Source: a virus. Taken from it: a stretch of 24,105 nt of DNA. This document shows, in pieces, positions 984-16,125 of the stretch (positions within the stretch are counted from its first letter, which is position 1; every line of letters starts with the position of its first letter). The stretch covers positions 1 through 24,105 of IMG/VR virus record IMGVR_UViG_3300031565_003359; one strand, given 5' to 3'. Below the pieces are notes generated by a model. It saw nothing but the letters and a program-made list of their open reading frames with translations. It ran no database searches and was not told the origin of the DNA. The position numbers and the translations under genes were made by a program.

Positions 984-3113
984 ATGTCACATATTAGAGA
1001 GGTACCTGAGGCTTGGAAAAATTTTCTTTCATTAGAAGATACTCCAGCAGCCTATGTAAATGGGCAATTTTTGCGTGCGACTGCGGTTGGTGTAGAACTT
1101 ACAGCCGATGTAGTTCAAAAAACTGGGTCAACAATGTCAGGGTTTCTTACCCTGTCTGCGGACCCCACGAATCCGCTACACGCGGCGACTAAGCAGTACG
1201 TTGATAGCGTTGCTACAGGATTGGACGTAAAAGAGTCAGTCCGAGTTGCAACAACAGAAAATACTTCGCCAGCAGCGCAGTCCCAAGAGACCGTACACAC
1301 TGGGCCGAATGGCGTATTAGTTTCGTTTGCGAGTGCAGATGGTGCAGGGTCGGTTATTGGTACTTTACCTGTTAGCCCGAACTCTGTAACGTTTACGGCC
1401 ACTATCGGGGCGTCTCCGTATACAGTCACGGATAATGGCAGTGGTGTGTTATCTGGATCTGGTCCTACTGGGGCCATTTCAGGTACCATCAACTATGCAA
1501 CGGGTGCGTGGACTATTGATTTCGATGCGGCTGACCCTCCAGATGATACAACGGATATCGTTGTAGATTACTCGGTTCCTTCGTCAGCGATTACGCTTTC
1601 TGGGTTGCAAACCATTGATGGTGTCTCGCTTATTGCGGGGGATAGGGTTCTTGTTAAGGATCAAGGTACAGGTAGCCCCCATGCAGACAATGGCATTTAT
1701 GTTGTTGCTTCTGGTGCATGGACTCGGGCCGAAGATGCCGATTCAGACGACGAATTCAACGCAGGGATGTTCACCTTCATCGAAGAGGGTACAGATAATG
1801 GCAATAGTGGTTGGGTCTGCACTACAGATAACCCAATTACTGTTGGTACCACTCCTACCGAGTTTGCTAAATTTTCTTCGGCTGGGGATTACGCAGCCGG
1901 TGAGGGTCTGACGCTTACGGGTGGGAATACCTTTAACGCCGACTGGGAAACCAACGTTGGTAACATTCAGGACGTAGGAACTGCCGCAGTAGGTACGTCT
2001 ACGAAGATTGCTCGGGCTGACCACGTTCACGCTCACGGTACTCAAGGTGGTGGTACACAGCACTCTGAGGTTACAACCTCAGTTGCTGGTTTCATGTCGG
2101 CTACGGATAAAACCAAGCTTGACGGTATTGACGCTAATGCTGAAGTCAACCAAAATGCTTGGTCGATTGTCGATATCAATGCAGCGGAAACTGTTCTGAA
2201 CTCTGACGCTAAAACGGATACCCTCTACTTGGTGGAGGCGAACGTAGTCAACATCGCTGGCAGTGGTACTGATACGGTCACTATAGGCCTTACAGCGGGT
2301 ACTAACGGCCAGTTGGTCAAGACGGTGGGTGGTGTACCTACTTGGGCCTTTGCAGCGTTCCTAGAGCTTTCTGATACGCCTGCGACGTATGCTGCCGCTG
2401 GTGGGCATAAGGTCAGGGTAAATTCTGGGGCTACGGCTCTTGAATTCATTGACGACACGTTGTTGTCACTTGACGACACTCCGTCGTCATATGTGGGTTC
2501 GGCTGGTTATCGTTTGGTTGTGAACAGCACCCCAGATGCCGTAGAGTTCATTGCTGACACCTTCATTAACCTGTCAGATACCCCCGCAAGTTACACGGGT
2601 AATAGCTTGGATCTTGTCCGGGTGAATGTGGGTGAAACGGCACTTGAGTTTGTTTCTGCTGGTATCGTTCCAGCCACAGCTACTCTAGGTCAGACTCTGT
2701 ATTGGAACGGTACTACCTGGACAGCAAACAGCTTGATTTTCAATGAGTTTGCTAGCCTTGAGGTTGGTATCAATACCGCGTCTCCACATTCTACCCTCCA
2801 TGTAAATGGTTCGTTTGCGGTTAATCTGTCTACGTTTACTGCAACTGTGGATCTTGGGGCGGGTACAAATGGTGCTGCAAAGACCATTATCATGAACAAC
2901 GCTGCTGCGGCTACAATTACGCTGCCTAGTGCGGTTGGTATTGAAGGTCGTGAGTATGACATTAAGAAAGTCAGTGCTACTGGTGGTGGTCGTACCGTGA
3001 CGATTGATGGAGCGGGGTCAGAAACCATTGATGGTTCACTCACTTTCGCCCTTGTTTCACAGTATGAGGCGATTACCGTTATTTCTGACGGCGCGAATTG
3101 GTGGATCGTATAA
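984..3113 (+). CDS. Tail fibre protein with tandem 34-residue repeats
   Basis: This 709-aa structural protein is preceded by a good ribosome site (TTGGAGG) in an 18-bp gap. N-terminal residues 14-24 (FLSLEDTPAAY) resemble the repeat unit found later. Residues 53-75 (GFLTLSADP...ATKQYVDS) match a common phage fibre segment and recur in the next gene. A segment near 360-382 (SEVTTSVAGFMSATDKTKLDG) is another widespread fibre motif. Three copies of a 34-residue unit begin at residues 459, 493 and 527 with exact periodicity, core (S/L)(D/E)DTPxxY...VNxxxxALEF. A GINTASPHSTLHVNGS segment follows. The last ~77 residues (from 633) share the C-terminal module of the upstream gene (ITLP...YDIKK...TIDG...YEAITV). 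A trimeric beta-rich fibre binding the host surface is the natural reading. The receptor is unknown. Confidence 0.88.
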   Translation: MSHIREVPEAWKNFLSLEDTPAAYVNGQFLRATAVGVELTADVVQKTGSTMSGFLTLSADPTNPLHAATKQYVDSVATGLDVKESVRVATTENTSPAAQSQETVHTGPNGVLVSFASADGAGSVIGTLPVSPNSVTFTATIGASPYTVTDNGSGVLSGSGPTGAISGTINYATGAWTIDFDAADPPDDTTDIVVDYSVPSSAITLSGLQTIDGVSLIAGDRVLVKDQGTGSPHADNGIYVVASGAWTRAEDADSDDEFNAGMFTFIEEGTDNGNSGWVCTTDNPITVGTTPTEFAKFSSAGDYAAGEGLTLTGGNTFNADWETNVGNIQDVGTAAVGTSTKIARADHVHAHGTQGGGTQHSEVTTSVAGFMSATDKTKLDGIDANAEVNQNAWSIVDINAAETVLNSDAKTDTLYLVEANVVNIAGSGTDTVTIGLTAGTNGQLVKTVGGVPTWAFAAFLELSDTPATYAAAGGHKVRVNSGATALEFIDDTLLSLDDTPSSYVGSAGYRLVVNSTPDAVEFIADTFINLSDTPASYTGNSLDLVRVNVGETALEFVSAGIVPATATLGQTLYWNGTTWTANSLIFNEFASLEVGINTASPHSTLHVNGSFAVNLSTFTATVDLGAGTNGAAKTIIMNNAAAATITLPSAVGIEGREYDIKKVSATGGGRTVTIDGAGSETIDGSLTFALVSQYEAITVISDGANWWIV
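1140..1211 (+). repeat. Fibre segment duplicated at 3408-3479
   Basis: The segment encoding GFLTLSADPTNPLHAATKQYVD here is matched by GFLTLHADPVNALHAATKQYVD at 3408-3479 in the next gene, in the same relative place near the N-terminus. The two fibre genes therefore share an ancestral N-terminal block or exchanged it by recombination. Confidence 0.8.
2358..2663 (+). repeat. Three tandem 102-bp (34-codon) repeats in the tail-fibre gene
   Basis: Units begin at 2358, 2460 and 2562, exactly 102 bp apart, and encode FLELSDTPATY, LLSLDDTPSSY and FINLSDTPASY, each followed by a VN...(A/V)EF strand. The DNA has diverged but the protein pattern is kept. Single related units occur at 1023-1100 in the same gene and 3159-3248 in the next gene. 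Confidence 0.85.
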
Positions 3114-3125
3114 TCTGGGGGCTGT

Positions 3126-5204
3126 GTGGCTTACACCGATCAGATTCCTGATCTTGATTTTACAGACTTGCTTAACGTCCCCAGTGATTTCACTGGGGCG
3201 GGCAAGTATGTTGTAGTGGTTTCTGCGTCTGAAAGTGCTCTGGAGTTTGTCCAGTATGTTGCTGCGGGGCAGATTTTAGAGAAAGAACTTCTTCAGAGCA
3301 CTCCGGCTGATAAGCAGATCCTAGTCTTTAATGCAACCAGCGATAAGTGGGAAGCAATTGATCACTCCCACACTGAATTTGTACAACGAATCGGGGATAG
3401 CATGTTGGGTTTTCTTACCCTTCATGCTGATCCCGTTAATGCCCTCCATGCAGCTACGAAACAGTATGTGGATGCTATCGAGAATGAGCAGGGAGACCAG
3501 AATCAGGCCACTAAAGAGCCTACTGGTTTTGAGCGCACAAATGAAGACACCGTATACACATGGTCGAATAGTACGCGGGTGTTTACAATCGCGCCTACGG
3601 GAGCTTCGTACACTATTTGGTTCTGGGGGACTAAGTTCGTAAAAACTGGGTTAGAGCAGGTTACCCTCCCTAATAGCCCAGGATTGCACTCGATTTACTT
3701 CGATGAAAATGGCGTGCTCCAAACCTCACAAGTTATTTCTCCTGAAGATCTTATCTCCGATTATGTTATCGTTGCGTATGTGTACTGGAGCGTACAAGAT
3801 AACATGGCCCTATATGTGGGGGACGAGCGTCATGGCTTGATGCCTTGGCAGATGCACCTCCGCTATCACAGAGACCAGGGGTCGTCGTACATCTCTGGTA
3901 TGAACTTAGGCAATATCACCGCAGATGGTAATGGTAACTTAAACGCCCATGCCCAATTTTCAATCACATCGGGCATTTTTGATGACGAGGATATTCGTCA
4001 TTATGTACCGAATGTCGCCTTCCCAGCCACGGTTCCCGTCTTTTACTTGTCAGGTAGCCCAGGGTACTGGCGTCGGTTGTCTCAAACAGCTCCGGTGATC
4101 AATTATGGGGGTACCGGGCGTGTAGCAAAGATGGTGGTTACAGGGTCTACTTGGAGCTTGGCAGAAATTAAGAATAATGATTATTTCTTAGTTCATATTT
4201 TCTCGACTAATGACCCGAGCACGCCATATGTGACTATTGCCCCTACTACGTCCTATGACAACGTAGGAAAAGCTGAGTCGGCAGCAGAAGCCGATCTCCA
4301 GACAGCCATGTTGTTACCGGATTTTCCGGTTCAAGAGTTCATCCCCATGGTGTCGTTAATCTACCAGACTTCTTCTGCGGCGGCTAATACATTCAAAGCA
4401 CGTATTGTAAGCGTACCCTCTACAGGTGATCCTTTCATTGACTGGCGGGGTAAGCCGCTGAATCCTCAAGCGACTATCAGTCACTATAGCCTTATTGACC
4501 GAGCGGAAGATGGTCAGCATCCAGCCTCAGCTATTTACACGGATGTGTCAGGGTTCAATGGCAACCTACAGGGCGTAGACAACGATGTTCAAGCTGCTCT
4601 AGACGCCCTCGATGACTTGATCATTACGCAAGCAGTTAGTGCTGCTACGAGTCTGGGTACGGGTGCGCCTATTCTCCACGGTAAGAACGCCAATACCCTT
4701 GAGTTCCATAACATCAAGAGTAATGACCCCAAGCTGGCAGTGTCGTTGGTATCGAATGATGTTATTTTAACCCCAGCTAATTTTATCTTCCATGCGTTCA
4801 ACGCTGCGGGAGGTATCAGCCTTGTTAGCTCTGCGTGGGCAGACCTTACGTGGACAGACGAGGTACGTAAAGACGCTGGGTTTACCCATAGCACCAATTC
4901 TGCTGAGATCACATTTACGGTAGCTGGAGATTATCTGGTTACCGTGGATATCACGACCGAAGTTACGATAGATGATCGTACTTCCGGTGTCTTTCGTATG
5001 CTGAAGAATGGTGTAGAACTCCCTGGTACCCGGACAGCCACTTATCAGCGGCTAGCTGCGGACCCGTATGGGCAGGCAAGCATAACCCGCCTGATAACTG
5101 TCAGCTCAGGGGATACCATGAGAGTTCAAGGGTACTCTAACCGGTCGAGTGCGGGAGTTCGTACTCTTGCAGATGGATGTCGTATCTACATCGAGAAGAA
5201 ATAG
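3126..5204 (+). CDS. Tail fibre protein with C1q/TNF-like C-terminal domain
   Basis: This 692-aa protein has a GTG start preceded by CTGGGGG, 12 bp after the previous stop. Residues 12-41 are one copy of the 34-residue fibre repeat of the preceding gene (nVPSDFTG...SALEF). Residues 95-118 repeat its GFLTLHADP...ATKQYVDA segment, so the two genes share N-terminal building blocks. The middle region (about 140-530) is unlike its neighbour. From residue ~552 to the end the sequence reads as a C1q/TNF-type jelly roll: FHAFNAAGG, a strand-rich core with ITFTVAGDYLVTVD and RMLKNG, and GDTMRVQGYS near the end. Such domains trimerise and often sit at fibre tips. The stop codon touches a promoter for the next gene. 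Receptor specificity cannot be read. Confidence 0.87.
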   Translation: MAYTDQIPDLDFTDLLNVPSDFTGAGKYVVVVSASESALEFVQYVAAGQILEKELLQSTPADKQILVFNATSDKWEAIDHSHTEFVQRIGDSMLGFLTLHADPVNALHAATKQYVDAIENEQGDQNQATKEPTGFERTNEDTVYTWSNSTRVFTIAPTGASYTIWFWGTKFVKTGLEQVTLPNSPGLHSIYFDENGVLQTSQVISPEDLISDYVIVAYVYWSVQDNMALYVGDERHGLMPWQMHLRYHRDQGSSYISGMNLGNITADGNGNLNAHAQFSITSGIFDDEDIRHYVPNVAFPATVPVFYLSGSPGYWRRLSQTAPVINYGGTGRVAKMVVTGSTWSLAEIKNNDYFLVHIFSTNDPSTPYVTIAPTTSYDNVGKAESAAEADLQTAMLLPDFPVQEFIPMVSLIYQTSSAAANTFKARIVSVPSTGDPFIDWRGKPLNPQATISHYSLIDRAEDGQHPASAIYTDVSGFNGNLQGVDNDVQAALDALDDLIITQAVSAATSLGTGAPILHGKNANTLEFHNIKSNDPKLAVSLVSNDVILTPANFIFHAFNAAGGISLVSSAWADLTWTDEVRKDAGFTHSTNSAEITFTVAGDYLVTVDITTEVTIDDRTSGVFRMLKNGVELPGTRTATYQRLAADPYGQASITRLITVSSGDTMRVQGYSNRSSAGVRTLADGCRIYIEKK

Positions 5205-5233
5205 TTGACAGCGCCAATACCTTTGCGTATTAT
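5205..5233 (+). promoter_or_regulatory. Sigma70-type promoter for the coiled-coil gene at 5255
   Basis: TTGACA (5205-5210), a 17-bp spacer and TATTAT (5228-5233) match the host housekeeping promoter consensus, with a perfect -35 and five of six -10 bases. It starts directly after the stop codon of the fibre gene and lies 21 bp upstream of the ATG at 5255. It argues against the longer reading frame that would begin at 5177. Confidence 0.8.
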
Positions 5234-5254
5234 CACAATCAAGGAGAAGAACTA

Positions 5255-5668
5255 ATGTCACACCCTAAGATCCGTCAACCGAAGAAGAAAGAACAGCCCA
5301 CCGCTCGGTCCCTAGACGTGGACCCGGATATTTTGTCCAAGGAGTTTCAAACCTTGGATGCCCAGCTTGCTCAGATCAACCAGATTATCAATGGGGCAGT
5401 AGAGATTGCCAAGAAGCAGCAGGCTATCATCAATTCGGCCAAAGCCGAGGGGCAAGTTATCCTCGGAAAAATGGATATGTTGAGCCGGATTTTGACCGGA
5501 ATGGGTATTGATCCGCGAGATTTAGCCACCCATGTACCTGCTCCAGAGGAAAATTCTGAAGAAAATCCCCCAATTTTTTCTGAGGAAATTCCTAAAAATA
5601 CCCCTCAACCTGTTGAAAACATTGAAGATGCACGTATTAGGGCCATCAAACAGCGTTTGAACCGATAA
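5255..5668 (+). CDS. Coiled-coil protein of unknown function
   Basis: This 137-aa protein was placed at the ATG at 5255 because it has a strong ribosome site (AAGGAGAA, 5241-5248) and a promoter just upstream. An in-frame ATG at 5177 lies inside the fibre gene and upstream of that promoter. The N-terminus is basic (PKIRQPKKKEQ). Residues about 25-90 are a predicted helix with heptad-like spacing (FQTLDAQLAQINQIING). The C-terminal part is rich in Pro/Glu/Asn (EENSEENPP) and the protein ends basic (RAIKQRLNR). I do not recognise a family. Its position behind the fibres would suit a fibre-assembly helper or small virion protein, but that rests on context only. The following 75-bp gap carries the TGCTTTATTAA element. 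Confidence 0.75.
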   Translation: MSHPKIRQPKKKEQPTARSLDVDPDILSKEFQTLDAQLAQINQIINGAVEIAKKQQAIINSAKAEGQVILGKMDMLSRILTGMGIDPRDLATHVPAPEENSEENPPIFSEEIPKNTPQPVENIEDARIRAIKQRLNR

Positions 5669-5679
5669 TCTCTCTTCGC

Positions 5680-5690
5680 TGCTTTATTAA
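5680..5690 (+). promoter_or_regulatory. TGCTTTATTAA element (copy A), candidate phage promoter
   Basis: TGCTTTATTAA lies in the 75-bp gap before the gene at 5744, ending 53 bp upstream of its ATG. The identical 11-mer occurs at 12831-12841, and related forms occur in three other gaps. No TTGACA-like box is suitably spaced upstream. It may be the -10-type element recognised by the phage sigma-like protein encoded at 7310. This is inferred from recurrence only. Confidence 0.4.
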
Positions 5691-5743
5691 GTGTTACGAT
5701 ATCTGAGGGCGTCAAAACCCTAATACGAAAATAGGAGGATATC

Positions 5744-6175
5744 ATGAGCACGTTTGATTACACTTACGAAGAGCGGCAAAGAGATGTCAACAGAGGGCTG
5801 TACATCCCGTTCTATATCGAGACCCCGGTTGGGGATGCCGATATTGAGGTCGGGGCAGAAGCGGCTGACGTGATCGAGGTTACTATCCAGGTCGTAGATC
5901 CGGGTGGGGACCCCATCGAAGATGTTATGTCTTTGATGGTCACCGCTTGCAGTGACGCTGCGGGTACAACTCCGGTTGCTACCACAGGTGGGATCGCTGC
6001 CACTACCGGTGCGGTTATCGCAGAGCTTGTTGCTGACACCAGCTTTCAGTTTACTACTGATGAGCTTGGTAAGGCAGTTCTTGAGGTTACTGACACGAAT
6101 GTAGCGGACATTTTCCTCGGGTTCACGCTTCCCGGTGGTAAGTACATTGTTAGTGATCCGTTAGAGTTCGCATAA
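5744..6175 (+). CDS. Ig-like virion / decoration-type protein
   Basis: This 143-aa protein has a near-perfect ribosome site (ATAGGAGGATATC) before the ATG. After a short polar N-terminus (TYEERQRDVNRG), residues ~40-143 are strand-rich: VIEVTIQVVDPGGDPIEDVMSLMV, then TTDELGKAVLEVTD and a closing GGKYIVSDPLEF. The 'T(T/D)...GKAVLEVTD' part resembles bacterial Ig-like (Big_1/invasin-type) folds that phages use on capsids and tails. There are few charged patches and no catalytic motif. It is flanked by a candidate promoter and a strong terminator, so it appears to be a self-contained transcription unit, as expected for an abundant virion component. Decoration protein is the leading guess; a tail or baseplate Ig subunit is the alternative. 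Confidence 0.65.
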   Translation: MSTFDYTYEERQRDVNRGLYIPFYIETPVGDADIEVGAEAADVIEVTIQVVDPGGDPIEDVMSLMVTACSDAAGTTPVATTGGIAATTGAVIAELVADTSFQFTTDELGKAVLEVTDTNVADIFLGFTLPGGKYIVSDPLEFA

Positions 6176-6203: not shown

Positions 6204-6232
6204 GGGAGCAGCTTGCTGCTCCCTTCTTTATT
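6204..6232 (+). terminator. Intrinsic transcription terminator
   Basis: GGGAGCAGC (6204-6212) pairs perfectly with GCTGCTCCC (6215-6223). Folded realistically this is an 8-bp GC-rich stem with a CTTG tetraloop, followed by a T-rich tract (TTCTTTATT). It sits 28 bp after the stop of the Ig-like gene and closes that unit. Confidence 0.9.
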
Positions 6233-6234
6233 GA
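6224..6234 (+). promoter_or_regulatory. TTCTTTATTGA element (copy E), candidate phage promoter
   Basis: This matches TGCTTTATTAA at 9 of 11 positions and ends 32 bp upstream of the cupin ATG. It overlaps the T-tract of the terminator, so the T-run alone could explain the resemblance. Confidence 0.25.
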
Positions 6235-6266
6235 CTGGAATGTGAATTCTTATAGGAGACCTTTAA

Positions 6267-6656
6267 ATGTCACGGGAGATCATACATCAATTAGAAGAAC
6301 TCGAAATAAAGTTCAACGAGCATGATCGCTCAATTATTTGGGAGTCTACTGAGGGCAAACAGATAATTGCTTGGGCGTTGAAGAAGGTTCCGGCTGTAGC
6401 TGTTGCTGATTCTTTTCTACCTAAAGGTGTTGAATTTCCTATACATAAGCACGAAGAGGCTGAAGTACTCATTTGTTACGAGGGCAGGGCCGATTGCATC
6501 GTCCGGTGTGACGAAGCGGGCGAGGTAGTTATCCCTCTGGTTCCTGGGAGACACGTTAGTATTCTTCCTCGGGTACCCCATTGTATAAAAACGAAAGAAG
6601 ATACGAGATTTATTGCTGTTACGGTTCCAGCATCAGAAGGATTCCCTGATGAGTAA
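6267..6656 (+). CDS. Single-domain cupin protein
   Basis: This 129-aa protein is preceded by TATAGGAGACC. Residues 54-73 fit the cupin motif 1 pattern G-x5-H-x-H-x3-E-x6-G exactly: G54, H60, H62, E66, G73. A motif 2-like stretch follows (GRHVSILPRVPH, residues 94-105), with H105 as the likely fourth metal ligand. The usual downstream Asn is missing. Known cupins bind a divalent metal and serve as isomerases, dioxygenases, epimerases or simple binding proteins. Nothing here fixes the substrate. The length is that of one compact beta barrel. Cysteines 70, 77, 81 and 106 are numerous for such a small protein. It follows a terminator, so it opens a new unit. Its end overlaps the next gene by 8 bp, implying co-translation with a holin-like protein. 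Confidence 0.8.
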   Translation: MSREIIHQLEELEIKFNEHDRSIIWESTEGKQIIAWALKKVPAVAVADSFLPKGVEFPIHKHEEAEVLICYEGRADCIVRCDEAGEVVIPLVPGRHVSILPRVPHCIKTKEDTRFIAVTVPASEGFPDE

Positions 6657-7260: not shown

Positions 7261-7289
7261 TTGACAGGCATCTTTAGCGATCCTATAGT
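7261..7289 (+). promoter_or_regulatory. Sigma70-type promoter for the sigma-factor-like gene
   Basis: TTGACA (7261-7266), a 17-bp spacer and TATAGT (7284-7289) form a near-consensus host promoter. It ends 20 bp before the ATG at 7310 and begins 2 bp after the preceding stop codon. Transcription should start near 7296, leaving a very short leader that contains the ribosome site AGGGAG (7297-7302). Confidence 0.82.
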
Positions 7290-7299
7290 CAGTTATAGG
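7282..7299. promoter_or_regulatory. Inverted repeat CCTATA-N6-TATAGG over the -10 box, candidate operator
   Basis: CCTATA (7282-7287) and TATAGG (7294-7299) are perfect inverted 6-bp arms separated by 6 bp. The left arm covers most of the -10 element and the right arm reaches the expected transcription start and ribosome site. A dimeric repressor bound here would block the promoter. No candidate regulator is identified, and the arms are short enough to arise by chance. Confidence 0.35.
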
Positions 7300-7309
7300 G
7301 AGCGCGAGT

Positions 7310-8098
7310 ATGTCATCAGGTTGGTTTGCATCTTTGGGTTGGTGGAAGCAGGAAGAAGCTTACACCGCCTTTGATTTGTACCGCTCTGACCCGTCTGAAG
7401 CCAATTACGAAGACGCCGTAAATACCGCCCTCCCCATCATACGTGTTGTGTACTCCACCCAAAAATTTAAAGTTACTTATGGTGGCGACGAGGACGATCT
7501 TATTGCTCATGCGGCTTTAACAATAGCCAAAGCCATTCCAAAAATGATCAAGAAGCCTGCCCATAAACTAGATAACGACAAGAAATATATGAGGTATCTT
7601 TTCACGTGCGTTATTAACGCTTTTTACCGTGAATACGACATTCTCCATGGCAAACACAACAAACTTCAGCGAAAAATTAATGAGCACGCCGACATAGACA
7701 CCCCCAACCCCGCCAACCAAAATTTCCGCCAAGTAGAAGCCGAAATGACACTGAAGTATCTACCTCAGCTTCTTTATGATATCGCCGTGGATATGGTCCG
7801 GTTTGAGGGGCAAGAACAACAGATATGCGTGTACATCCTCAACCAGCTTATTGATGGCCGTGAAGTGGCTAAATCGGTCCTACAACTCATAGGTTGTAAG
7901 GACCGTAGTTTTTTTATCAACTATTGTCAGAGTCTCCTGCTCCAGGCTTTTCTCTACCTGAGAAAGACGCGGAGTAGAGAAACCCTTGACCCTGCCGAGG
8001 TTTACGGTGGGGACGATGGGCCAGATTTTGACATATACGAGTACGAGACTCTTGGGTTCGCAGACGATTGGGATTCCTGGGAGGCAGAGTATGTATAG
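7310..8098 (+). CDS. Sigma-factor-like transcription protein (putative phage late sigma)
   Basis: This 262-aa protein starts at an ATG with AGGGAG 7 bp upstream. Residues ~33-120 resemble sigma70 region 2: two helices with YGGDEDDLIAHAALTIAKAI (the D-L-I...A...L pattern), then KYMRYLFTCVINAFYREYD, like the 'YL...N...R' helix that contacts the -10 DNA. Residues ~172-220 have helix-turn-helix character (LIDGREVAKSVLQLIGCKDRS). The tail from 224 is strongly acidic (14 Asp/Glu in 39 residues) and ends LGFADDWDSWEAEYV. T4 gp55 is a comparable small divergent phage sigma that directs host RNA polymerase to late promoters. Here a host-type promoter with a palindrome drives the gene. It could instead be a sigma-like adaptor or anti-sigma. 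The family assignment is from pattern only. Confidence 0.65.
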   Translation: MSSGWFASLGWWKQEEAYTAFDLYRSDPSEANYEDAVNTALPIIRVVYSTQKFKVTYGGDEDDLIAHAALTIAKAIPKMIKKPAHKLDNDKKYMRYLFTCVINAFYREYDILHGKHNKLQRKINEHADIDTPNPANQNFRQVEAEMTLKYLPQLLYDIAVDMVRFEGQEQQICVYILNQLIDGREVAKSVLQLIGCKDRSFFINYCQSLLLQAFLYLRKTRSRETLDPAEVYGGDDGPDFDIYEYETLGFADDWDSWEAEYV

Positions 8099-8240
8099 GC
8101 AGGGCACCCCGAGTGCAGCCTTTGTGGATATCGCACCCTCATCTTTTTGGCATTGGGCCGATTTTTATCGGGCAACATCATATACGTTAAGCAGGGAGCT
8201 AGTCTACAATGTGATCTCGTTCGGGGTGTCCTCTTTTTAA
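8091..8240 (+). CDS. Small 49-aa protein bridging two genes
   Basis: An ATG at 8091 overlaps the end of the sigma-like gene by 8 bp and has GGGAGG about 6 bp upstream, a good ribosome site inside the previous gene. The 49-aa product is rich in aromatic and small residues (SSFWHWADFYRATSYTL) and ends VISFGVSSF. It has no membrane helix of convincing length. Without it there would be about 145 bp with no gene here. The following gene begins 2 bp after its stop and has no ribosome site of its own, which fits reinitiation. I do not recognise it. Confidence 0.55.
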   Translation: MYRQGTPSAAFVDIAPSSFWHWADFYRATSYTLSRELVYNVISFGVSSF

Positions 8241-8242
8241 TT

Positions 8243-8506
8243 ATGAATGACACCACCTTAATCCCCGATATCTTTCTCACCCTCATGGCTCAGGCTGACA
8301 AAATTGAAGAGCTTGACGAAGAGACCATGAGCCAGTATTATGAACTTCTTAATGATGCCCCCAGTTTCATGCCGGAACTGGTAGCTATTGTGGGGCCAGA
8401 AGTGTTTGAGATTCTAGTCAAAAACTATGGTGGCCGGTCGATGCAGATTCCGACAGCCGATCAGATAATCAGTCTTGTGAGGAAAAATGGACAACCAGAA
8501 GAATAG
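8243..8506 (+). CDS. Small acidic protein of unknown function
   Basis: The ATG at 8243 (87 aa) is taken as the start. The frame extends upstream, but only through codons overlapping the 49-aa ORF and without a ribosome site. The region before the ATG (CTCTTTTTAATT) also lacks one, so translation probably depends on ribosomes finishing the 49-aa ORF. The protein is mostly helical and acidic (ADKIEELDEETMSQYYELLND), with a hydrophobic middle (MPELVAIVGPEVFEILVKNYGG) and the end SLVRKNGQPEE. No known motif is seen. Its end overlaps the next gene by 20 bp. Confidence 0.7.
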   Translation: MNDTTLIPDIFLTLMAQADKIEELDEETMSQYYELLNDAPSFMPELVAIVGPEVFEILVKNYGGRSMQIPTADQIISLVRKNGQPEE

Positions 8507-9659: not shown

Positions 9660-10449
9660 GCTAGACAAGCTCATAGTTATTGTAGCTACGGCTTACAATG
9701 AACTTATAACCGAGGATATCCCAGACAGAAGATTCGAAGAAACGGTTGACGTAGTTTCTAAAGCGAAGGATCAAGCCGAAGAAAACTTTGTCTCGTTAGC
9801 TAATGACATTGTAGTGGAGACTGTTCTCGCTACTGAAGAGGCGGCAAAGAAAAAGTCTGACCGCCTGAGTAAGCTTGTTCCAGGTATAACTATTCCCCAA
9901 GAAAGCCCCCCTGAGGTGGCGGAAATCCCCGTAGCCCCCATTAGGCCCGCTGCTAAATTGGAGGGGCCTGCTATGCCTCTCCCGCGTGATGTGAGTGGGA
10001 ACTTGGAAGGTATGCCGCCGAACATGCACCAATTGGTGGAACAAGCGGAGGCTGTGGCTACCCAAAGCATGAGTGGTGGGGTTCTTGACGGCGGAATGGG
10101 AGTGGATATAGACCCCAACGTTAAGGTAAACCATGACCTGGGTATGACGGTAGCGGAAGAGAATCGTGCGAAGGCCGGTCTTCCTATAAAGATTAACCGG
10201 CCTACTATCCATGTGACTGGTAAACCCCTTAATATGAACCCCGTTCCGGCACCGACTGCTGCTTCGGCTACGCCGAAGGCAGCGACCCCCTATGAAGAAG
10301 CTCTAAAAAAGATAGGTCGCTTAGCTGCTGAACACTCTGATAGTGATAATGAGGAACTAGCAAAATTTGCTTTCAAAGTACTCACCGTTGTTGAGGTGAC
10401 TCTTGGGGTAAATTTTACAGAAGCTCCGGGGGAGGCGGAAAATGTTTGA
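9631..10449 (+). CDS. Proline-rich protein with helical ends, unknown function
   Basis: The ATG at 9631 (272 aa) was chosen because GGAGGAGA precedes it. An upstream ATG at 9601 lies inside the previous gene without a site. Residues 1-85 are a charged helix (KKRIKDELDKL and FEETVDVVSKAKDQAEENF). Residues ~90-215 are a low-complexity linker rich in Pro, Gly, Met and Ala (PPEVAEIPVAPIRPAAKLEG; MSGGVLDGGMGVDIDP). A helical C-terminus (YEEALKKIGRLAAEHSDSDNEELAKFAFKVL) follows. This dumbbell layout suggests a scaffold or linker protein. I recognise no family. It overlaps the next gene by 8 bp. Confidence 0.72.
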   Translation: MNVKKRIKDELDKLIVIVATAYNELITEDIPDRRFEETVDVVSKAKDQAEENFVSLANDIVVETVLATEEAAKKKSDRLSKLVPGITIPQESPPEVAEIPVAPIRPAAKLEGPAMPLPRDVSGNLEGMPPNMHQLVEQAEAVATQSMSGGVLDGGMGVDIDPNVKVNHDLGMTVAEENRAKAGLPIKINRPTIHVTGKPLNMNPVPAPTAASATPKAATPYEEALKKIGRLAAEHSDSDNEELAKFAFKVLTVVEVTLGVNFTEAPGEAENV

Positions 10450-10801
10450 AGAGTACCCCACCTTTGGGGTTTTGGTCACACTTAAAGTCTATCTTATTGG
10501 AGGACATACGCTGGAAGTAACGGATGCTTTTCGGGCACGGAACGAACAAGAAGCTCGTAATATGGCGATAAATATCTTTATAACGGGCAATGGAATGATC
10601 ATGTATGGGGTCGCAGCGATTGTTTTGGATGCTGTTGCTGCCATTGAAGTTGTAGGTACCACCTTTATTAATCTAGATGACCCGGCGAATGAGCACTGGT
10701 TACGAGCAATAGAAGTTTTTGAGAACTTTATGGAATCCCAAGATGTTGCACAAGAAGAAGACAGACCTGTCGCGGCTCTTACCGGATTTGGGCACGAGTG
10801 A
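10442..10801 (+). CDS. Conserved-looking small protein upstream of terL, unknown function
   Basis: This 119-aa protein has a strong GGAGG site (10431-10435) 6 bp before the ATG. It begins with a strand pattern (FGVLVTLKVYLIGGHTLEVTDAFRARNEQEARNMAINIF), resembling small alpha/beta domains. It continues with a hydrophobic stretch (MYGVAAIVLDAVAAIEVV) that is probably buried rather than membrane-spanning. The C-terminal helix carries WLRAIEVFENFMESQDVAQEE. It overlaps the start of terL by 59 bp, the position where small terminase genes often sit, but no DNA-binding motif supports that. Unknown. Confidence 0.7.
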   Translation: MFEEYPTFGVLVTLKVYLIGGHTLEVTDAFRARNEQEARNMAINIFITGNGMIMYGVAAIVLDAVAAIEVVGTTFINLDDPANEHWLRAIEVFENFMESQDVAQEEDRPVAALTGFGHE

Positions 10802-12821
10802 GCTAACTGGAGCAGATGACGAACTTGTTGCAGAATTAATGGATCTCATTTCGGCAACGGGAAGTACTGATATCCTAGATGATATCTTCCTTTTAGATTA
10901 CAATAGCACTCCGGTAACCCCCGAAGAGTTCCTGAACTCCCGATTTTATATGGGACCGTTCGTAGATGCCCTGTACCCCAAGTGGAAACAGGAGCTTTTG
11001 TATGTTTTGGACCCAGCTAATCAGATCAACGAGTGGGTGTTGTATGGGTCTATTGGTACTGGAAAGACCTCAGCAGCTTGCGTTGCTCAGTTCTACAAGC
11101 TCTACTGGCTTACGTGCATGAAATCCCCCCAGAAGGTGTTTGGCTTGGCCGAGCACTTTCCCGTGTATCTGGCCTTCTTCTCTGTTACGAAGGGTAAGGC
11201 CGAGGACGCGATCAGTAACAAGTTCGAGAGTCTACTGAACATGTCCCCTTATTTCCGTGAAGCCCTACAGAAGAACCCCCGTAGAGTCTTTCTCCAGGGT
11301 GCAGCCAACCTGTTTGGCTCAGGGTATAAGGAACACCCCAAGAAAGACGATCTATTTGAGCTTGTGCTCCCCCATAACCTTCACCTCCTATTCGGGTCTC
11401 AAACGCAGCACGCGCTATCTCTTGACGTTTTCTCAGCTACTTTGGATGAGATGAACTTCCGTGGTAAGAAGTCGATTAAAGAAGCCGATGATGAGAACAG
11501 TGCCCAAGCTCTGTACCATCAGGTGCGTACTCGTATTGAATCCCGTTTCCAAAACGCGGGGTACAACCCTGGGTTGGTTATCAACATTTCGTCCGCTCGG
11601 GCGTCTGACTCCTTCGTTGAGCAGCGGATTGAGGAAGTTCGTGCCCGTGGGCTTAAGAACGTTCATATCTCCGATTTTGCTCTGTGGGATGTAAAACCGG
11701 GAAGATATGGGGATAAGTTCTTCAAGGTATTCGTTGGGGCCGGGTTTAGGTCTTCTCGTATTCTGGAAGAAGAGGAAACAGTCAAGGACATGCTCATAGG
11801 TGAGAAGATCATTGATGTCCCAGAAACGTTCCGGGAATCTTTTGAGACCGGTTTGGATACGGCTATCCGAGATCTGGGTGGAGTGGCTACAGCCGCTATT
11901 AGTAAGCTGTTTAAACAACGCGAAGTTATACCGAAAGCGAACGGGAAATACACCAACCCGGTTCAGCCGGAGACTATTGAGATCGGGATGAAGAATGGTC
12001 TTGAGGTTTCGGATTTCTTTGATATTGACGAAATCAGTCGGTATGATAACGTTCAACGGCATTTGAACAACCATCCGAGAGCAGGCCGGTTTGTCCATGT
12101 TGACTTGGCGAGGAATGCAGACTGTGTGGGTATTACTTGCCTGTCTATCCCCTATTACTACAAGAAAACCCTACCTCATTACGACAACAATAAAGAGAAG
12201 GTCACGCTTCAGTTGCCTTTTGTTTTTGTGGACTTTTTCTGCCGGATCAAAGCACCAAAACTCGATGAGATCTCGTTTGAGAAAGTTCGACAATTTATTG
12301 TATGGTTACGGGATAATGCCGGGTATAACATTGTACGAGTGTCTTATGACTCCTGGCAGTCAGTCCATTCGATTCAGTTGTTGCAGGAGAATGGTTTTGA
12401 GGTAGAAACCATCTCGGTGGATAAAACGGATGAGCCGTATATGGATCTTTTGAACGCTTTTAATGAACATCGGATTATGAAGCCTCCGCATTCCTTTGTG
12501 GATGAGGAGCTTCGTAAATTGGATCACGACATCACTGCCGCTCGGGGAGCAGTGGATCACCCCCGGAATGGCTCTAAAGACGTTGCGGATTCTTTGGCTG
12601 GCGCGTACTACAACGCCCTGACATATATCCACAAAAATGGTTTCGGTGCAATCGGGGCACAACAGGTACAGGAAAATGTTCTTCCTGGTTTGTTTGCCCA
12701 GCACCCGAAAATGGCTAAAGCTGCCAAGCTTTCTAAAGAGCTTGGCTTCGATGAACCGGTTACGTTGGAATCCGGGTATGACGGTAGGTTCTATGGTAAA
12801 TCCCGGATTGCCGTAAGATAA
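10743..12821 (+). CDS. terL: Terminase large subunit (DNA packaging ATPase and nuclease)
   Basis: From the ATG at 10743 the protein is 692 aa. That start has no good ribosome site and lies inside the preceding gene, so coupled translation is likely. An in-frame TTG at 10719 is less attractive and an ATG at 10839 is possible. Walker A is GSIGTGKT at 102-109. Walker B is VFSATLDE, with D235 and E236. The coupling motif is NISSA at 281-285. The C-terminal RNase H-like nuclease shows VHVDLA with D454, VSYDSWQ with D536 and GSKDVADSLAGA with D613 and D616. These residues bind the metal ions that cut packaged DNA. The enzyme docks on the portal and pumps DNA into proheads. Both domains appear intact. 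Confidence 0.95.
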   Translation: MLHKKKTDLSRLLPDLGTSELTGADDELVAELMDLISATGSTDILDDIFLLDYNSTPVTPEEFLNSRFYMGPFVDALYPKWKQELLYVLDPANQINEWVLYGSIGTGKTSAACVAQFYKLYWLTCMKSPQKVFGLAEHFPVYLAFFSVTKGKAEDAISNKFESLLNMSPYFREALQKNPRRVFLQGAANLFGSGYKEHPKKDDLFELVLPHNLHLLFGSQTQHALSLDVFSATLDEMNFRGKKSIKEADDENSAQALYHQVRTRIESRFQNAGYNPGLVINISSARASDSFVEQRIEEVRARGLKNVHISDFALWDVKPGRYGDKFFKVFVGAGFRSSRILEEEETVKDMLIGEKIIDVPETFRESFETGLDTAIRDLGGVATAAISKLFKQREVIPKANGKYTNPVQPETIEIGMKNGLEVSDFFDIDEISRYDNVQRHLNNHPRAGRFVHVDLARNADCVGITCLSIPYYYKKTLPHYDNNKEKVTLQLPFVFVDFFCRIKAPKLDEISFEKVRQFIVWLRDNAGYNIVRVSYDSWQSVHSIQLLQENGFEVETISVDKTDEPYMDLLNAFNEHRIMKPPHSFVDEELRKLDHDITAARGAVDHPRNGSKDVADSLAGAYYNALTYIHKNGFGAIGAQQVQENVLPGLFAQHPKMAKAAKLSKELGFDEPVTLESGYDGRFYGKSRIAVR

Positions 12822-12830
12822 GATAAACCT

Positions 12831-12841
12831 TGCTTTATTAA
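12831..12841 (+). promoter_or_regulatory. TGCTTTATTAA element (copy B), candidate phage promoter
   Basis: This is an exact copy of the 11-mer at 5680-5690. It lies in the 41-bp gap after terL and ends 21 bp before the ATG at 12863. No sigma70-type -35 box is suitably placed upstream. Confidence 0.42.
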
Positions 12842-12862
12842 CATGATTGACGGAGGTCTACT

Positions 12863-13273
12863 ATGAGCTTTTTTGAAGAGGTTGACAGACATATTGATAA
12901 CATGTTGTCCGAGGGTGTTCTCCCGGATTCAGAAGAAATTATTGAAATGGAAGTTGGCCCGGTTATGCACGATGGACAGGTACCTGGACAACAGCTACCC
13001 CCGCAGCGCAGCGGCCCCGAAGGTGGCCCAATTTCTAAGCCTGCGGCTAATTTCCCCTGGATGGGAAACAACCGGGCAGCCGAGCTTTTCCGGGGCGCTT
13101 GCATGGGACGCGATTATACCGCTCCCCCATTCAGCAACCAGAATGTTGCTTATCCGCCCCCAATGTTCGGTGGTGCGTCCACTGGTGGTCTGGGAGAGGG
13201 CGACATCGACACTGAGAAGGTCGTAGATGCTGTTATTGCTGACTTGAAGGCACTTCAGGACTCTGACGAGTAA
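12863..13273 (+). CDS. Proline/glycine-rich protein, unknown function
   Basis: This 136-aa protein has GGAGG 7 bp upstream of the ATG. A short acidic N-terminal helix (SFFEEVDRHIDNMLSEGVLPD) and a C-terminal helix (DTEKVVDAVIADLKALQDSDE) flank a disordered centre rich in Pro, Gly, Gln and Asn (GQVPGQQLPPQRSGPEGG; YPPPMFGGASTGG). Terminal helices around a flexible spacer also describe the gene at 9631, although the sequences are not alike. It sits between terL and the portal and is probably a virion or assembly factor. No domain is recognised. Confidence 0.7.
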   Translation: MSFFEEVDRHIDNMLSEGVLPDSEEIIEMEVGPVMHDGQVPGQQLPPQRSGPEGGPISKPAANFPWMGNNRAAELFRGACMGRDYTAPPFSNQNVAYPPPMFGGASTGGLGEGDIDTEKVVDAVIADLKALQDSDE

Positions 13274-14388: not shown

Positions 14389-16125
14389 ATGGCCGAAGTT
14401 ATAAACAAGCTACGCCAAGGGTTCATCCGGATGACCAAGCTGGATCAAGTGATTCGGCAACAGATGGCGTTGTCTTCCCAGATCGGTGGAATCCAAACAC
14501 ACTTCAGTGCCACTGACGACCTCGTTGGTGACTTGGCGGTTATTGAAGAAACGCTAAGTCAGTTTAATATGATCACTCGTATGCACCGTGAACGCCGGAT
14601 GCGTTACCGGGATTATGAGGCGATGGATAACTATGGAGACGTTAGTGTTGCCCTGGATATCTATGCTGAGGAGGCTACGCAGAACGATTTGGTGAAAGAT
14701 ACGAATCTCTGGGTAACGGGTGACCCTAAAACTGTGCAGATTCTTGAAGACTTTTTTGAGAAACAACGGATTCGGACAATGGTTCATGGTTTTGCTCGGA
14801 CCATTGCTAAGTACGGTGATCTGTTTATGTCCGTTAAGTATGATGTTAACGGCATTTCGAGCATCTTGTATCTTCCCCCGGACTACGTTGAACGTATTGG
14901 TCTCGGTGTGGATAAAGTCAAGTATTACAAGCTAGAGAATCAGCTTAAGCAGGTATCCCCCCGTAAAGATGGGATGCTCCTTCCGTGGGAGTGTGTTCAC
15001 TTCCGGCTGCTGTCCTTCGGTTTCTCAACCATTTATGGGCGGGCAATTATTGAGGCAGCACGTAAACGTTGGCTTCATCTTAAACTTCTTGAAGACGCGG
15101 TGGCTATTTACCGTCTTAACCGTGCCGTTGAAAGACTAATTTTCTACATTGATGTGGGGTCCGCTTCTCCGTCAGAGTCCCTGCGTATCGTTAATCAGTA
15201 CAAGAGGAAGTTCGGTAACAAGCGGTCGTATATTGATCCGAACTCAGGAACGTTCGAGCAGCAGTATGACCCAACCAACATGCTGGAGAATATTTTCTGG
15301 CCTGTTAACTCAGCTACGGAGCGATCTCGGATTGAGAAGCTAAACCCGCCACCGGAGCAGGGTCAGCTTCAGGATCTGGACCACTTTAACGAAAAGCTCT
15401 ATGTTGCCTTGGGTATCCCCCGAGAGTTTCTTACTGGAGAAACTACAGGAAGCTGGAACAGCCGTGAATCGCTTGCTCTGCAAGACGTGCGGTTCTCGCG
15501 TAAACTCCATCGTCTCCAGCAAGCCACCCTAGAGGGCCTAGAAACGCTTTGTCGCTTCCACCTAGCCGTCGTGCTCGGTGATGCCGATCAAGCGCAGGCA
15601 GCCAACTTCCAGCTTCATCTAGCGGACATCTCAAAGGTAGCTCGTCAGCAGTATGACCAAGTTCTCTTGAATCGTGCTCAGTTGATGACTGTTTTGAATG
15701 ATATGAGTCTTCAGATGAACCTGAATCGGGATGTGTGGTTGACTTGGGCGTTTGAGAACTACTTCCCAGATTTGCCTAAGGATCTTATCCCGCACGTTAT
15801 CATTCCTGATGCAGCGTTGTCGGGGGCTAGCCAAGAGATTGCTCAGGCTAACCAGCCTCCTGCTCCAGCAGCACCCGCAGCCAAGGCTAAGCCCAAGAAG
15901 AAGAAAAAGGCTAACGAATCTGCCCGCGATCTTGTCATGCAAGATCTTGGAGATGACGTACCGGTAGACGTGCTCAAGGAATTATTGGAAGACTTTAGTC
16001 CTGCGGAGGATGCCTATTCACAAACCCTGGTGGACAAGCCTAAGATCAATCATTCATGGCTGGAGAAACTTGTTGAGACATACAGTGAGAAAAGGGAAGT
16101 CAATACTCTAACAGAGGAGAGCTAA
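14389..16125 (+). CDS. Portal protein, T4 gp20-like
   Basis: This 578-aa protein sits 4 bp after the previous stop, with a purine-rich AGAGGGGAT site. The text resembles T4-type portals: RMRYRDYEAMDNYGDVSVALDIYAEEA near 70-96, LPPDYVERIG near 163, IYRLNRAVERLIFYIDVG near 240, then FDxFNEKLYVALGIPREFL-like text near 330-345. Portals form the dodecameric ring at one capsid vertex where terminase docks and the tail attaches. Beyond the usual core, residues ~488-510 are an Ala/Pro/Lys linker including K-P-KKKKK (501-507), followed by an acidic helical tail to 578. The internal 'wing-stem-clip' order cannot be assigned in detail from sequence alone. Confidence 0.9.
   Translation: MAEVINKLRQGFIRMTKLDQVIRQQMALSSQIGGIQTHFSATDDLVGDLAVIEETLSQFNMITRMHRERRMRYRDYEAMDNYGDVSVALDIYAEEATQNDLVKDTNLWVTGDPKTVQILEDFFEKQRIRTMVHGFARTIAKYGDLFMSVKYDVNGISSILYLPPDYVERIGLGVDKVKYYKLENQLKQVSPRKDGMLLPWECVHFRLLSFGFSTIYGRAIIEAARKRWLHLKLLEDAVAIYRLNRAVERLIFYIDVGSASPSESLRIVNQYKRKFGNKRSYIDPNSGTFEQQYDPTNMLENIFWPVNSATERSRIEKLNPPPEQGQLQDLDHFNEKLYVALGIPREFLTGETTGSWNSRESLALQDVRFSRKLHRLQQATLEGLETLCRFHLAVVLGDADQAQAANFQLHLADISKVARQQYDQVLLNRAQLMTVLNDMSLQMNLNRDVWLTWAFENYFPDLPKDLIPHVIIPDAALSGASQEIAQANQPPAPAAPAAKAKPKKKKKANESARDLVMQDLGDDVPVDVLKELLEDFSPAEDAYSQTLVDKPKINHSWLEKLVETYSEKREVNTLTEES

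Follow-up and report, generated by a model that had tools for sequence, protein, structure and literature searches.

Here we describe a putative transcription switch in a 24,105-base stretch of DNA (the window), an IMG/VR virus record from an uncultured virus whose head and tail genes are of the T4 type. These include a T4-type portal gene at 14389-16125 (Pfam Portal_T4, E 9e-46), and an HU-like protein and a terminase are also encoded in the window. The nearest named relatives of the terminase include Thermus phage phiLo and Vibrio siphoviruses. The gene of interest is an open reading frame on the plus strand at 7310-8098, which begins with ATG, is preceded by GGGAG at 7298-7302, and encodes a divergent sigma-factor-like protein of 262 amino acids, as judged from the reading frame, its relatives, and the predicted fold. 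The close family of this protein (the 7310 protein) is present in other uncultured viral contigs, where the gene order around the gene is kept; its seven closer relatives are 57-71% identical, and a ninth, more distant family member was found in L063. Three large relatives of the window, G001 (176,533 bases), G002 (168,260 bases), and G003 (139,526 bases), encode T4-type capsid (Gp23) and tail sheath genes; all three are classed as linear and may be incomplete.

The sigma-like gene is preceded by a host-type (sigma70/sigmaA-like) promoter at 7261-7289 on the plus strand, which consists of a -35 hexamer TTGACA (7261-7266), a 17-nt spacer, and a -10 hexamer TATAGT (7284-7289), and matches the consensus at 11 of 12 positions. 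Promoter-like sites in the window taken alone occur at chance level (24 found vs 24.5 expected). Across the nine family members, the best promoter scores ahead of the sigma-like gene are 11, 11, 10, 11, 11, 11, 11, 11, and 9 of 12, with TTGACA exact in every member, a -10 hexamer that is TATA(G/C)T or near it, and a distance to the start codon of about 48 bases in all members except L012 (112 bases). Pairwise identity among these nine promoters reaches 90% in the hexamers vs 29% in the spacers, and the best scores of five neighbouring gene families are 6-10, typically 8. From the conserved hexamers, the drifting spacers, and the lower scores of the neighbouring families, we therefore conclude that the promoter of the sigma-like gene is under purifying selection in the nine family members, and the claim of an earlier note on this DNA, that the gene sits behind a near-consensus TTGACA-N17-TATAGT promoter, is borne out. 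In the large relatives, host-type sites are scarce (11 upstream windows vs 3 antisense vs about 0.8 in shuffles); they lie ahead of the sigma-like gene in all three, and also ahead of a UvsW-like helicase gene. A second host-type promoter in the window, TTGACA-N17-TATTAT at 5205-5233 on the plus strand, is kept in about five of eight sequences. It lies upstream of a coiled-coil-like gene at 5252-5668.

Comparison of the 7310 protein with Pfam, PHROGs, the sequences of PDB entries, and 50,697 phage records yielded no match, and a search of genome contigs returned no relative. The Pfam model Sigma70_r2 likewise gave no match to it, a miss that is not decisive because this search also left T4 gp55 (14.5 bits) and SPO1 gp28 (13.1 bits) under the cut-off of 24 bits. 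A comparison of profiles with those of E. coli sigma factors, SPO1 gp28 and gp34, and gp55 proteins reached P 0.015 at best (RpoE), and was dropped as evidence because control families such as the terminase score equally. Since the sequence profiles are below significance, sigma homology rests on the fold. The AlphaFold model is all-helical, with a mean pLDDT of 60. In a Foldseek comparison of this model with PDB, places 1-8 were all taken by sigma factors of the sigma32, SigA, SigD, FliA, SigB, and WhiG families (best E 4.7e-3, prob 0.98). Structural re-alignment gave sigma factors in 50 of 50 rows, with Z up to 9.6, in a list that consists of Foldseek's own candidates, not of a fresh search, and is drawn from a database that over-represents sigma structures. 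Residues 13-113 of the predicted model align with region 2 of many sigma factors with an rmsd of 2.5-3.5 A over 77-96 residues (Z 7-8), and all named matches with prob >0.9 in a viral structure library are annotated as phage sigma factors. The predicted region 2-like domain (residues about 14-123, encoded at 7349-7678 on the plus strand) contains the invariant segments DEDD[LF]I..AA and KYMRYLFTCV.NAFYREYD. The earlier note had proposed sigma region 2-like helices and a structural check by fold and profile; the predicted fold supports the proposal, with the sigma region 2 fold retrieved by both Foldseek and the re-alignment, and the profile searches do not. The best reading of the model is that the 7310 gene encodes a single-chain, highly divergent sigma factor. 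Its low pLDDT, the readiness of helical folds to match by chance, and the abundance of sigma structures in PDB count against the further reading as a late sigma developed below.

The C-terminal part of the protein is predicted to form a five-helix domain (residues 138-223, encoded at 7721-7978 on the plus strand) with a helix-turn-helix-like segment [GD]RE[IV]AKSVLQL.GC, which makes it a candidate for region 4. When modelled alone, this domain reaches a pLDDT of 85, and its structural matches are weak: AlpA at Z 5.0 and 4.9, and SigA region 4 at Z 4.1. Thus, of the C-terminal helix-turn-helix-like segment noticed earlier, the helical domain itself is well predicted and the match to sigma region 4 is weak; a region 4-like helix-turn-helix is plausible from the model. 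The last 40 residues are acidic, with FD[LI]xxF-like patches in several family members.

The next clear gene after the sigma-like gene, at 8243-8506 on the plus strand, encodes an 87-aa Mor-type protein that matches the N-terminal part of PHROG 836, 'late transcriptional activator' (E 2e-4), and has the N-terminal part of Mor without its helix-turn-helix. In a distant ortholog, L085:5979-6410, the PHROG 836 match spans the helix-turn-helix (E 3.6e-8), accompanied by a match to Pfam Mor (E 2.6e-4). Judging by these sequence matches, the helix-turn-helix retained by the L085 ortholog has been lost in the window family. The gene just before this ortholog, L085:5246-5992, aligns over its full length with the sigma-like family (rank 1 of 25 ORFs, P 0.0011); the pair is preserved there, and the arrangement of a sigma-like and a Mor-type gene before the terminase is thus old. 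On this basis, the 8243-8506 protein is a probable partner or co-activator of the sigma-like protein. In a 145-kb phage contig, the gene at the corresponding position (L067:3798-4487) has Sigma70_r2 as its sole Pfam match (E 0.05); it does not align with the sigma-like family (rank 15 of 20) and was rejected as a member. As a lead, it may be a second, different phage sigma, and it is adjoined by a Mor-type gene (L067:4490-4879).

The Mor-type adjacent gene also lends itself to a different explanation, by which the 7310 protein would be a DNA- or polymerase-binding regulator (an activator or antiterminator) and the late element described below would be read by the host sigma with its help, as with Mu Mor/C. 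The same explanation draws on the C-terminal domain, which when taken alone matches AlpA, a polymerase-loading factor, above SigA region 4, and on the lack of any sequence match between the 7310 protein and sigma families. We consider it unlikely, as the full-length fold matches are sigma factors throughout, the late element is unlike a host -10 and has no -35, and the Mor-type protein of the window is without the DNA-binding helix-turn-helix.

The second class of promoter-like sequences is a candidate late element, GCTTTATT-N3/4-TG. At 5681-5693 on the plus strand, GCTTTATT-N3-TG stands upstream of the gene at 5744; CTTTATT occurs at the homologous place in all eight aligned sequences, and the whole GCTTTATT in seven of them. 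At 12832-12845, also on the plus strand, GCTTTATT-N4-TG is located between the terminase and the gene at 12863; here GCTTTATT is found at the homologous place in 9/9 family members and TG in 8/9, the member without TG being L063, which retains GCTTTATT at this post-terminase gap. In both homologous gaps, the flanks drift and CTTTATT is kept, followed by TG 3-4 bases on. A third plus-strand candidate, CTTTATT-N3-TG at 6226-6237, precedes a cupin-like gene at 6267 and directly follows a terminator-like hairpin (6204-6223). The earlier note had described the element ahead of structural genes as an 11-mer, TGCTTTATTAA. The core survived as GCTTTATT-N3/4-TG, with which we replaced the exact 11-mer, whose trailing AA is not conserved and which, with up to 2 mismatches, is no more frequent in the window than expected by chance (7 vs 7.4). 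A further site at 10663 lies inside the ORF 10442-10801, has no TG, and was taken as chance.

Among 7-mers counted in gene-upstream windows, CTTTATT ranks first in G001, G002, and G003 (tied in G003), followed by ribosome-binding-site words, with TTGACA words also high in G002. In the upstream windows of the window and the large relatives, CTTTATT sites number 25 in sense and none in antisense orientation. The full pattern CTTTATT-N3/4-TG has 18 occurrences vs at most 5 for any of 41 other letter permutations, the top-scoring of which overlaps CTTTATT shifted by one base. The information content upstream of CTTTATT is below the shuffled null (maximum 0.35 vs a 95% null of 0.41 bits), and therefore we assign no -35 to the late element. 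As a strand-specific and phage-specific element ahead of late-type genes, GCTTTATT-N3/4-TG holds up.

Instead of a promoter, CTTTATT could in principle mark the T-run of an intrinsic terminator or some other processing signal. A stem of at least 6 pairs precedes six to seven of the 28 listed sites, where the T-run of a terminator could mimic CTTTATT, and the six sites behind hairpins also count against the late-sigma reading. The hairpin is missing at most sites, including the two best conserved, and a TG 3-4 nt downstream is more frequent among upstream sites (18/25) than in the rest of the genomes (12/38; Fisher P 0.002), which makes a terminator or processing signal very improbable and favours the promoter reading.

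The genes that follow the element include the tail tube gene (in 3/3 large relatives), the post-terminase gene, and head, holin-like, tape-measure-like, and SbcD-like exonuclease genes. Directly upstream of the major capsid, sheath, and portal genes there is no such element, a point against the late-sigma reading, which must therefore assume read-through within operons for them. The motif co-occurs with the close family of the sigma-like gene: in the five distant stretches examined (L085, L067, L084, L080, and L027), which hold no close family member, no element was found upstream of genes. The three large relatives were also searched for other transcription factors. A multisubunit phage RNA polymerase was not found in them, with positive controls detected, nor was any other recognisable sigma or a match to the T4 gp55 profile; the T4 gp33 family was not found in the relatives, with its positive control detected. 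In the search of the relatives for a sliding clamp, the control itself fell below the cut-off, and no DNA polymerase was identified by motif. With no multisubunit polymerase of the phage and no other sigma found, the 7310 protein is the obvious candidate for a redirecting factor.

The link between protein and element is indirect, and the 7310 protein might instead serve as a sigma for middle or other genes, with GCTTTATT read by another phage factor such as the Mor-type protein or an unrecognised polymerase. The occurrence of GCTTTATT ahead of the exonuclease gene, which likewise speaks against a late sigma, would fit this arrangement, and the search for a T7-type polymerase was run without a positive control. 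We regard it as quite unlikely, given that no sigma-like gene other than that of the 7310 family was found in the large relatives, that these have no detected multisubunit polymerase, and that the motif accompanies the close family and was not seen ahead of genes in the five distant stretches.

We consider it probable that the 7310 protein is a gp55-like late sigma in a single chain, which host polymerase would produce early and which would direct polymerase to GCTTTATT promoters. By this scheme, host RNA polymerase with the main host sigma would transcribe the 7310 gene early from TTGACA-N17-TATAGT. The product would bind the host core polymerase via its region 2-like domain, displacing or competing with the host sigma, and would steer the core to GCTTTATT-N3/4-TG, a single -10-type element without -35, ahead of late-type genes such as those for the tail tube and the head. 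The C-terminal domain may occupy the place of sigma region 4 or of T4 gp33, the Mor-type protein would be a probable co-activator of late transcription, and late transcripts would start at or near the conserved TG. That both promoter types are conserved, that the two genes form a pair, and that the predicted fold matches sigma factors are computational results; from them we infer core binding, recognition of GCTTTATT by the 7310 protein, the timing, and the helper role of the Mor-type protein. The earlier proposal, in which host polymerase makes a phage sigma that then redirects polymerase, is partly supported: its two DNA halves stand, the protein half has the support of the predicted fold, and the 7310 protein probably acts on GCTTTATT.

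The late sigma of T4-type phages, T4 gp55, which works with gp33 and gp45, is similar in being a small phage sigma on host core polymerase, as predicted here, and in using a single -10-type late element without -35, a likeness in kind and not in sequence, since the T4 late element is TATAAATA vs GCTTTATT here. The portal, capsid, and tail genes are shared with T4-type phages as well. There is no profile similarity between the two proteins (hhalign P 0.21 over 16 columns), and T4 gp55 has 185 aa vs 262 aa for the 7310 protein with its extra C-terminal domain; the T4 gp33 family has no counterpart found in the relatives of the window. The hydrophobic C-terminus of gp55 binds the clamp (PMC2988020), and the acidic tail of the 7310 family with its patches is reminiscent of it, a lead that was noticed after the fact. 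T4 gp55 would be analogous in its mode of action rather than a demonstrated relative.

In phiEco32, early promoters are read by host sigma70 and phi32_gp36, which has no recognisable region 4, uses the single-element promoter tAATGTAtA with the start 6-8 bp downstream, whereas gp47 of phage 7-11 uses a bipartite promoter (PMC8948821). The phiEco32 system resembles the one proposed here in its single-chain phage sigma, one-element promoter, and host-sigma early promoters, with family membership not implied, and the spacing is like that of a start near the conserved TG. Both phiEco32 and 7-11 differ as podoviruses of enterobacteria with another element. SPO1 gp28 and gp34 are single-chain phage sigmas of about 200-225 aa that act on host polymerase, and gp34 acts with a small partner, gp33, a role that the Mor-type neighbour may play here. 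The layout of gp28 is similar by eye, and neither protein has a significant profile match to the 7310 family (gp28 P 0.09, gp34 P 0.35). Mu Mor/C (PHROG 836, Pfam Mor) is matched by the 8243-8506 gene and its distant orthologs, and differs in that the Mor-type protein of the window family is without the DNA-binding part and its gene follows a sigma-like gene.

Single-chain phage sigmas are already known from phiEco32, 7-11, and SPO1, whereas, within the databases and literature searched, this sequence family and its proposed late element appear to be new, as does the pairing with a Mor-type gene. A review of T4 late transcription asks why there is no fused late sigma in T4-type phages (PMC2988020), and the 7310 family could be a natural test case for one. 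A bolder reading, which we hold to be less likely than not, is that a fused one-chain late sigma does the work of both gp55 and gp33 on an undescribed GCTTTATT promoter, aided by a co-activator that derives from Mor and has shed the part that binds DNA; phages with T4-type heads and tails would then have a second, separate way of controlling late genes. If the late-sigma reading is true, large uncultured phages carry a sigma family that is invisible to sequence searches and has a predicted target, and the promoter motif would help in practice to tell early from late genes when genomes of this virus group are annotated.

Several minor features were observed along the way. The terminase (10758-12821) has its kin in phages with unlike tails and the portal is T4-type, as in a mosaic packaging module. 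Two large repeat-rich proteins with common internal segments (LSLDDTPSSYVG-like) are encoded at 984-5204 and are probably tail or fibre proteins. A possible 49-aa ORF at 8090-8239 overlaps the sigma-like gene at its 3' end; from there to the Mor-type gene, the DNA has a partly conserved look in the relatives, and the 49-aa reading frame is not clearly conserved. By eye, an SbcC-like recombination ATPase ORF, L067:1652-3835, is apparently interrupted by an intein-/Hint-like segment (CLPADT...THPIMSE...VITHN).
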